A stretch of DNA of 27,134 bases from IMG/VR virus record IMGVR_UViG_3300044621_001515, positions 1 through 27,134 of that record. The stretch is one strand, 5' to 3'. Source of the stretch: a virus. Below the pieces are notes generated by a model. The model ran no database searches and was not told the origin of the DNA. It saw only the letters and a list, made by a program, of their open reading frames with translations. How positions within the stretch are numbered: position 1 is the first letter of the stretch; each line of letters opens with the position of its first letter. Below are positions 5,750 through 7,735 of the stretch, in pieces. The position numbers and the translations under genes are program-made.

Positions 5750-6395
5750 AGACTCTTGGGTGGGTTGCTACTGTGGCGGCGTTGTTATTTGTAATCGTTA
5801 ATCCTCCGCGCACATCTTGGAGATCGCGGACGAGCGGGGCGTAGAAGACGAGATTCTGCGGGCGCACCTTGTCGCAAGTCATGCCTTTGGCGAGGGAGGC
5901 GACTTCGGCTGCGGTGAGGGCGGCAGACCAGATTCCGACTTCAGCGATGCGGCCATCGGTAAATCCAGAAAATGCATTAATACCCCTTAAAAAAACAGCT
6001 GCAATCTGAGAGCTATTTATATTTAAAGGAGATATGTTTTCGGTAGATGTCGCCGAATTTCCTCCATCTAAATATACTGTTCTTGATGTATTTGATGAAA
6101 AAACTCCTGCAGCATGATGAAATGTTCCAGATGAAAATGCAGAAGTGGACGTAGCAACGCTTTCAGTTGAATCTTGTGCGCATGTTGCTTGCAGGGGATC
6201 GCCAGCAACAGCCCCCGCCGCTCGGATTCTGAAATAATTATTAAATGTTCCTAAAGTTGATGAAAGCGATATAAGCGTGTGATTTGCAGTAGTGTTGTCA
6301 ACAGAAAACCAACAAGCCATCGTGAGTGGAACAGCAGCTACAGGGGCCGAGCCAGCCGAAATGTATTGATTAGTCCCATTAAAATCGTAAGCCAT
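5742..6395 (-). CDS. LamG/concanavalin-like receptor-binding protein (217 aa)
   Basis: Resembles a Laminin-G-3/concanavalin-like jelly-roll domain: N-terminal MAYDFNGTNQYISAG (the usual 'lxFdGxdxyv' strand), MACWFSV at 26-32, a FHHAAGVF segment at 92-99 (the 'wHhvA' strand), VYLDGG at 107-112 and DGRIAEVGIWSAALTAAEV at 147-165, which is the family's closing motif. Such domains in phages usually bind glycans on the host surface or decorate the virion. The central segment (about 5960-6300) is more A/T-rich than its ends, suggesting mosaic exchange. Start and upstream stop overlap as TAATG. Confidence 0.75.
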   Translation of the reverse strand: MAYDFNGTNQYISAGSAPVAAVPLTMACWFSVDNTTANHTLISLSSTLGTFNNYFRIRAAGAVAGDPLQATCAQDSTESVATSTSAFSSGTFHHAAGVFSSNTSRTVYLDGGNSATSTENISPLNINSSQIAAVFLRGINAFSGFTDGRIAEVGIWSAALTAAEVASLAKGMTCDKVRPQNLVFYAPLVRDLQDVRGGLTITNNNAATVATHPRVYA

Positions 6396-7030
6396 TACGC
6401 CGCGCTCCTTACTTCGACGGCGATCAACTCGGCATCGCCTGTCATGGTGTCGCTACCGTTGTTCGCATCGCGGTTGATCTTGAGGCGGAATCCGTCTCCG
6501 GCAGTTACTGAGTCAATGGTGGTTAGCGTGATCTCCGAGTAGTTCGGCACTCCGCTTGTTCCGTTTGTGGTAGTGGTCACGCTGGCTGCGGTATCGAAGG
6601 AATCGGAATCAATATCGGTGGTCATGCGCTCCAGCGATGCGTCCCACACGCAGGCTCCAGATGTGGCTGTAGTAGCAGTCCAGATGATGCGAATCTTGAG
6701 TCCGCTTCCCAGCACGGCGGCTTCGGGGATTACGCCAAGAAAGATTGCGCTTTCGTCTGTAGCATCGTCAAAGTCGAGGATTGCGATGCTATTACGAGTA
6801 TCCAGCGTGGCGAAGTTGGTGGCTGGAGGCTGGTTATCTTGCGCATTGAAGACTGCGTATGTTTTAGTTCCACCGCCTCCACCGACAGCAGATTCCGTTC
6901 CGCTTGAGTCTTTAATATAGGCTTTATTATCACTCTTGATGTAGAGGGCCGCGTCTCCGCTGTTGGGAGTCAAGCCAGTGGATTGAGTGAAAATTGCGGC
7001 TGTTGCGAAATGTCGGTCTGGTGAAGGCAT
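6395..7030 (-). CDS. Tail fibre / receptor-binding-type protein (211 aa)
   Basis: The N-terminus contains GDAALYIKSDNKAYIKDSSG, a phrase typical of phage fibre and collar proteins, then a polyglycine hinge (AVGGGGGTKTYAVF, about residues 49-62). The remaining 145 residues are Thr/Ser/Asp-rich beta-sandwich-like sequence ending in EVRSAA. Likely forms a trimeric or dimeric binding tip with the LamG-like protein downstream. No Shine-Dalgarno is visible at ATG 7030; a CGATAAA box and a hairpin lie upstream (7048-7115). Confidence 0.6.
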   Translation of the reverse strand: MPSPDRHFATAAIFTQSTGLTPNSGDAALYIKSDNKAYIKDSSGTESAVGGGGGTKTYAVFNAQDNQPPATNFATLDTRNSIAILDFDDATDESAIFLGVIPEAAVLGSGLKIRIIWTATTATSGACVWDASLERMTTDIDSDSFDTAASVTTTTNGTSGVPNYSEITLTTIDSVTAGDGFRLKINRDANNGSDTMTGDAELIAVEVRSAA

Positions 7031-7495
7031 AGTCTTGTTAAGTTAGTTTTTATCGCTTGTGTTTGCAAGCAAGATTTTGCGTTTAAGATTTACGCTGCAA
7101 ATCAAGTCTTGCTTGAACTATACAGCGATTTCTAAACAAAAAGTGGTGCGGTGGAGTTCAGGTCGCTCGGCTGCTCTATGCATTTCCTTGGAAAATAACG
7201 CACGAATGCGCCAAGTAGGGTAGGGGTCAACCATACGGATGCCGTTCTACCTCCCTAGAGCTACGACCAATTAGCGTGCCGCCCTCAATGCTCCACCGCA
7301 GTTCTTGGCCCCGCCGTGATGCTCTTCCAGAATCCAGAAGCGTTGCCGCATCACGCTTTGCATAGCCCTGCCTTCAATTTTGGGCAGTCGGCATTTGCAT
7401 CGTCCGGCATAGGAACGGGGTGGACTTTATCCTCTTCGGTTATGCCCGCGCCTTGGAGACGCGCATCGAACCGTTCGGAATTGTCCTAAAACGTT
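7031..7495. other. Gene-free, hairpin-rich region; possible structured RNA
   Basis: No convincing gene. Several exact inverted repeats: CAAGCAAGA/TCTTGCTTG (7066-7074, 7107-7115) enclosing GCGT/ACGC; TGCGGTGGAG/CTCCACCGCA (7147-7156, 7291-7300) enclosing CGCA-CGAA-TGCG (7199-7210) and ACGG-ATG-CCGT (7235-7245); CGTGATGC/GCATCACG (7315-7322, 7348-7355) enclosing CTTC/GAAG. On the minus strand two mini-ORFs (7271-7363, 30 aa; 7118-7234, 38 aa) share one frame, separated by two stop codons; they could be the remnant of a decayed gene. The nested helices suit an RNA of about 150 nt spanning 7147-7300. The strand cannot be decided. Confidence 0.45.
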
Positions 7496-7735
7496 TCAAA
7501 GATCAGTTTTCTTCTCTTCTAGAATCGCATTTACTTTTCTTGTAGCAAGTTGTTTTTCTATAAGTTTCTTTGCGAGAAGCATGGCTTTAAGCCACTCGAT
7601 ATTGTTTGCAAACGCCGCTGGTGCAGACCAAAGCATCCTCTCGCAGCACTCTCTCCACTCGTCTCTTTCTCTTTCAAGGGTCTCACAGCGATATACAAGC
7701 TCCATCATCGCCAGCGTTTCTTCTATTCTATTCAT
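7496..7735 (-). CDS. Helical hypothetical protein (79 aa)
   Basis: Start at ATG 7735, which has GAGGAGG eight nt upstream and overlaps the end of the helicase gene by 8 nt; the longer TTG reading is unnecessary. Residues 5-35 look like a coiled coil (MELVYRCETLERERDEWREC) with paired Cys (ECCER), followed by another helix ending in a basic/acidic tail (NAILEEKKTDL). It could be a helicase partner because it is coupled to that gene, but nothing in the sequence proves it. Confidence 0.65.
   Translation of the reverse strand: MNRIEETLAMMELVYRCETLERERDEWRECCERMLWSAPAAFANNIEWLKAMLLAKKLIEKQLATRKVNAILEEKKTDL

Follow-up and report, generated by a model that had tools for sequence, protein, structure and literature searches.

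The 7031-7495 gap of the window

The window, that is the whole stretch of DNA analyzed here, is a 27,134-base virus record of IMG/VR (IMGVR_UViG_3300044621_001515). It corresponds to a tailed phage with a small terminase, a DnaB helicase and a dCMP deaminase, whose proteins show only weak similarity to those of known phages (Stenotrophomonas and Curvibacter phages). Between positions 7031 and 7495 lies a gap of 465 nt with no open reading frame (ORF) of 60 aa or more on either strand, in agreement with an earlier sequence-only reading which had found no gene to explain it. That reading had noticed a perfect 10-bp helix and had proposed that it closes the ends of a structured phage RNA some 154 nt long. 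The helix is present (TGCGGTGGAG at 7147-7156 pairs with CTCCACCGCA at 7291-7300) and the RNA that it closes, hereafter module C, is supported by covariation. However, C is only one of several RNAs that make up an array on the minus strand (Table 1). The proposal that the RNA is new also holds: the whole window has no match in Rfam 15 at gathering threshold and the region 6950-7560 none at E ≤ 10. ARAGORN identifies no tRNA in the window, and C is neither a tRNA nor a tmRNA according to ARAGORN and Rfam. Neither a sigma70 promoter nor a simple intrinsic terminator was found between 6900 and 7700.

Folding of both strands, as the sequence-only reading had suggested, favors the minus strand of the gap (z = -2.97, 0 of 100 shuffles as good) over the plus strand (z = -1.54), while the values for C alone are modest (z = -1.72 on the minus and z = -1.03 on the plus strand). 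The fold energy of a single sequence is only suggestive of a structured RNA in the gap. We therefore judge the RNA to be real from the comparison of homologues, which is decisive.

Table 1. Features of the array and of module C in the window
Feature	Positions	Strand	Evidence or remarks
TGATCTTTGA element, 5' boundary of the array	7496-7505	minus	directly before the first unit
Module A, nested hairpin of 67 nt with GGAC/GUCC as closing helix	7422-7488	minus	fold z = -3.38, 1 of 200 shuffles as good
Module B, closed by CCCCG/CGGGG, inner helix GCGTGATGC/GCATCACG	7309-7420	minus	12-sequence alignment
Module C, multibranched RNA of about 154 nt (element of the sequence-only reading)	7147-7300	minus	covariance model and covariation
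C helix P1, 5' side	7291-7300	minus	97.8% of cells paired; double-sided change in 6 of 10 pairs
C helix P1, 3' side	7147-7156	minus	covariation, same 10 pairs
C helix P4, 5' side GCUCU	7257-7261	minus	98.3% paired; covariation in 5 of 5 pairs
C helix P4, 3' side AGAGC	7173-7177	minus	covariation
C helix P5, 5' side CUUGG	7211-7215	minus	99% paired; covariation in 4 of 5 pairs
C helix P5, 3' side CCAAG	7187-7191	minus	covariation
Module D, long hairpin with 9-bp helix, between C and the next gene	7052-7129	minus	fold z = -2.62
Gene after the array	6395-7030	minus	start about 115 nt downstream of C

Fold and covariation of module C

Relatives were gathered by DNA-pattern scans of viral contigs, to which the R1 covariance model was then applied. 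C occurs in at least 28 IMG/VR phage records (E from 1e-43 to 1e-5 over two R1 searches), which include near copies as well as members from phages of 32% GC, the phages as a whole spanning 32-59% GC. The conserved cores are GCATTGAGGGCGG and GAGCGACCTG, the second of which reads GAGCGACC(TG) across the family; this invariance is partly selected since the search patterns demanded most letters of the cores. An alignment of 23 distinct sequences, fitted to the model and so biased towards structure, has 97.9% of its pair cells occupied by standard pairs, and 16 of the 32 pairs show double-sided compensatory change. None of 500 shuffles is as good on any measure, and pairing falls to 33-49% when the partner is slid by 1-3 columns. 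In an unfitted MAFFT alignment of 16 C sequences, double-sided change is seen at 7 pairs. Helix P2 is nearly invariant, as is most of P3, so neither is proven independently. The helices are kept by the 23 homologues, and the unit has no frame that remains open across the family; C thus passes both refuting conditions set by the sequence-only reading.

When the alignment is read as the minus strand it contains 73 G-U cells against 3 A-C cells. By this asymmetry C is transcribed from the minus strand and a plus-strand RNA is ruled out. C is about 100-164 nt long; the lengths compared, 100-162 nt, represent every residue modulo 3. Rfam gives no match on C in L029 (E ≤ 5) or among the weak matches in L040, and blastn against plasmids and annotated phages gave nothing significant; a match in a Caulobacter phage (E = 4) lies within a coding region and was set aside. 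Judged by its covariation, C is a structured RNA family not described before. A natural deletion form of 68 nt exists in one record (L009:13801-13868), where P1 and the 5' core are kept and the interior is gone.

Units of the array and their common boundary

Read along the minus strand, the array consists of the TGATCTTTGA element followed by A, B, C and D, and fills the gap. Two further helices, of 8 and 9 bp, had been described on either side of the 10-bp helix. Both are present, but each belongs to a separate unit: the first (CGTGATGC at 7315-7322 with GCATCACG at 7348-7355) to B and the second (CAAGCAAGA at 7066-7074 with TCTTGCTTG at 7107-7115) to D. The alignment of 12 B sequences shows a conserved core with 3 double-sided pair changes and an interchangeable internal hairpin; by fold energy alone B is weak (z = -0.53). 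Matches to the B motif in L017, L018 and L020 were due to chance and were discarded once aligned. The evidence for A and D consists of fold energy and few homologues: A has counterparts in L006 (90%) and L013 (99%), while D is kept after C in L004 and L005, with only its start in L013. D is probably a member of the array.

The sequence TGATCTTT stands directly before the first unit in 17 arrays, whichever unit leads. In the 450 nt that precede C on its strand, the motif matches 27 times, at 17 distinct sites, where 0.42 matches would be expected. It marks the common 5' boundary of the arrays. The TGATCTTTGA element might be a promoter-like or a processing signal.

Cassette shuffling and gene context

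The units are combined differently in related phages. While the window carries A-B-C-D, the order is X-G-B-C-abiF in L003, A-B-C-abiF-tRNA-Cys in L006, X-G-C-H in L007, B-C-H in L008 and G-C-H in L010. L005 carries C twice, once in a B-C-abiF array and once in an array where B-C-D follows a short A-like hairpin. L019 has B-H-tRNA-Cys, without C though related. Module H (L002:3853-4112, L008:563-824, L009 and L019:2479-2656) is a conserved array unit of about 200 nt, closed by TTTGCGG/CCGCAAA and without an Rfam match. In L032:1-930, further stem-closed units can be recognized by eye in a row before C (CTCAGC/GCTGAG, ACGGACCCT/AGGGTCCGT, GTGGCCC/GGGCCAC and TTGGCGG/CCGCCAA).

At least six unrelated gene sets flank C, several of the gene names being by-eye readings of translations and not database matches. 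C is found with DnaB and a small ORF followed by a tail-fibre-like gene; with an HNH-like gene and variable genes after it; among head-region genes including a prohead-protease-like gene; just ahead of a gene resembling a large terminase in L040 and upstream of one resembling a lysozyme in L032; and after head genes (L029). The terminase-like protein of L040 (L040:6700-9360, 886 aa) has, by eye, an apparent intein-like insertion. No flanking protein common to distant C loci was found. Since the units shuffle and the gene neighborhoods are unrelated, C would act in trans rather than as a cis-element of one gene.

abiF RNA and tRNA neighbors

An intact Rfam abiF RNA (RF03085), the RNA antitoxin to the HEPN ribonuclease AbiF/Abi_2, follows C by 9-13 nt in eight records (L003, L005, L006, L012, L016, L030, L031 and L037), with scores of 43.0-44.4 bits (gathering threshold 37). 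It is a separate downstream unit: C itself does not match abiF RNA, a 37-nt hairpin with a CCUCU-AAC-AUGC core. No Abi_2 (AbiF) gene was detected in 29 records, many of them fragments, and abiF RNA therefore appears to stand without its toxin. In Clostridioides difficile, an RNA with two abiF motifs, RCd22, neutralizes AbiF by binding this toxin, both in cis and in trans (PMC12373285).

tRNA or tRNA-like genes adjoin array units in five records. A tRNA-Cys lies directly within the arrays of L006 and L019, and tRNA-like cloverleafs stand beside C in L029, L032 and L040 (fold energy z = -3.05, -3.24 and -2.29, respectively). That of L032 matches the Rfam tRNA family with 27.4 bits. Those of L029 (11321-11418) and L040 (9746-9858) have unusual variable arms and were missed by ARAGORN and Rfam.

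A second family, module G

Module G follows the pattern GCGGCGTGGAAAGCNNACACGC ... GTAGCGNCC and occurs in at least 120 viral contigs (sites in L010:9019-9175 on the minus strand, L101-L105 and L106-L225). Across 101 distinct sites, most of the 8 positions of its outer stem are occupied by each of the four Watson-Crick pairs in one site or another, and on average 7.36 of 8 positions are paired against 3.6 in shuffled sequences, the observed mean being somewhat inflated because the downstream arm was picked as the best of four offsets. The interior is hypervariable (37-240 nt), and G contains two conserved hairpins. A tRNA-type T arm is found within the interior at 7 of 126 sites (L202, L208, L178, L179, L152, L187 and L128), with Rfam tRNA matches in L202 and L208; these look as though the G scaffold had taken up tRNAs.

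G is unannotated or overlaps a hypothetical gene in annotated phages of Pseudomonas and Ochrobactrum; Persinger, PotUPM1 and POI1126 are examples of phages that carry it. Rfam gave no match to G at 16 loci, and the pattern is absent from 398 genomes of Pseudomonadota (the phylum of G022, Sphingobium). On the pairing of its outer stem, G is a second new and widespread phage RNA family. Proteo-phage-1 RNA (RF03044) lies about 150 nt from G in L209:1120-1435. In L219:10458-10494 an abiF RNA (55.2 bits) directly follows G and is the only regular-expression match to the abiF core in about 1 Mb of G loci; proximity of abiF to G as a general rule was discarded (1 of 125 loci).

Relation to known systems

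Phage tRNA arrays and T4-type stable RNAs are rows of end-closed RNAs, sometimes including true tRNAs, like the array described here. However, none of C, B, A and G is a tRNA. Like C, abiF RNA is a small structured RNA; it stands next to C in eight records, and a similar bind-and-block action on a defense protein is likely. It differs as a short hairpin from the multibranched C, which resembles it in neither sequence nor structure. No Abi_2 toxin gene was detected in the phage records, in contrast to a type III-like RNA antitoxin system where it stands beside the RNA. Proteo-phage-1 RNA is, like C, a phage RNA of unknown function; it does not match C.

Two kinds of phage-borne noncoding RNA act against RNA-dependent defense, as proposed here for C. 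The pseudo-ToxI of phage PhiTE, an RNA antitoxin mimic, evades ToxIN (PMC3475682) and the Racr anti-CRISPRs are RNA mimics used against CRISPR (PMC10651486). Both imitate a host RNA (ToxI and CRISPR repeats, respectively), whereas no such host RNA is known for C. Moreover, C is much longer than a CRISPR repeat, and Racrs are often found near anti-CRISPR genes. GOLLD, ROOL and OLE (PMC12286853) share with C that they are conserved noncoding RNAs, some of them phage-borne, with unclear function, but they are known families and much larger. No published description of C, B, A or G was found in the literature, which was covered in part and is not searchable by sequence. With compensatory changes in several helices, C is a new family within the structured noncoding RNAs of phages.

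Possible functions of the arrays

From the association of the arrays with abiF RNA and tRNAs we infer a function, which must remain conditional. On the minus strand, the gap encodes a row of independent small structured RNAs, namely A, B, C and probably D. Each has a closing helix of its own at its ends and would be freed or stable as a separate RNA. The arrays are mosaic cassettes whose units are swapped between phages, and the array would be transcribed as one unit and then processed. Each unit would act in trans as an antitoxin-like or decoy RNA blocking one RNA-binding or RNA-cleaving host defense protein, as abiF RNA blocks AbiF. We consider such an RNA-based counter-defense cassette the most likely explanation, albeit tentatively, because abiF RNA occurs without its toxin, phage RNA mimics are known and units are exchanged behind a common element.

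Several points weigh against it. The eight abiF cases represent two related array types and thus few independent events; abiF RNA lies near G in a single locus of 125 and is missing from the array of the window. Part of the role of the abiF hairpin may be that of a terminator. A missing Abi_2 gene is no proof, since the records are mostly fragments. Finally, no bacterial defense locus with C was found: a strict genome scan gave chance-level matches only, the 8 exact 18-mer matches in bacterial genome contigs comparing with about 7.5 expected and none being convincing by the model.

The strongest competitor, which we regard as less probable, is that the array is akin to a tRNA cluster and its units are stable RNAs that aid translation or RNA metabolism during infection, for example as tRNA supplements, as scaffolds or by binding ribosomes or RNases, and have no anti-defense role. 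This would account for the tRNA-Cys of the L006 and L019 arrays, for the cloverleafs beside C in L029, L032 and L040 and for the tRNAs in or adjoining G in L101, L202 and L208. However, C has neither a tRNA fold nor an Rfam match, abiF units have a defense-linked role and phage tRNAs can themselves be counter-defense.

It is rather unlikely that C is a trans-acting small RNA pairing with host or phage mRNAs, although it is small, free-standing and independent of context. Its longest conserved stretches (GCATTGAGGGCGG and GAGCGACCTG) lie inside a compact multibranch fold and are common to phages of 32-59% GC. This would suit a core that binds a protein or an RNA more than a seed for mRNA pairing, although their letters were selected by the search patterns.

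Two further roles appear very improbable. C could act in cis, as a riboswitch, as an attenuator or by translational control, in the leader of the 6395-7030 gene, which begins a short distance downstream on the same strand and whose relatives follow the array in G002, G004, G006 and G007. However, the L013 array is 97.8% identical to that of the window over the shared 675 nt, yet a different gene follows. Elsewhere the next gene is prohead-protease-like, a terminase, a lysozyme or, in one gene set (G003), convergent. Moreover, the arrays of L003 and L006 end in the abiF hairpin and a T-run, which in the L003 type precede the next gene. A leader role for one gene is thus unlikely.

The second role is that of a packaging or virion RNA like the phi29 pRNA, which the sequence-only reading had thought conceivable. 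Its size of about 154 nt, its frequent location in the head-gene region and its position just upstream of the large terminase in L040 would be in keeping with this, but we now disfavor it. Phages with C carry ordinary terminases (the small terminase TerS in the window and, by eye, the large-terminase-like protein of L040). C is double in L005, truncated in L009 and missing from the related L019 array, unlike an essential part, and most phages do not have it. Packaging RNAs of the phi29 type are universal in their group and accompany a phi29-type ATPase; neither applies to C.

Gene decay, which had been suggested from mini-ORFs split by stops, is ruled out by the lack of a frame conserved over the family, and chance hairpins, with which only the modest fold of C alone would agree, are of negligible probability given the covariation and the lengths in all residues modulo 3.

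Implications

To our knowledge, few RNA inhibitors of bacterial defenses have been described (pseudo-ToxI, the Racrs and abiF RNA as an antitoxin). C would represent a categorically new class of counter-defense only if its function were shown. It is possible, though we are less confident of this than of the counter-defense cassette itself, that exchangeable arrays behind one transcription element form a plug-in counter-defense arsenal in which every unit is aimed at a different host RNase or RNA-binding defense protein, C and G being two undiscovered classes of inhibitors directed against unknown or unmatched defenses. If counter-defense is the correct explanation, each conserved unit would be a bait for its host protein and thus a direct route to new defense systems. 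Even if it is wrong, C and G are two new phage RNA families supported by covariation.
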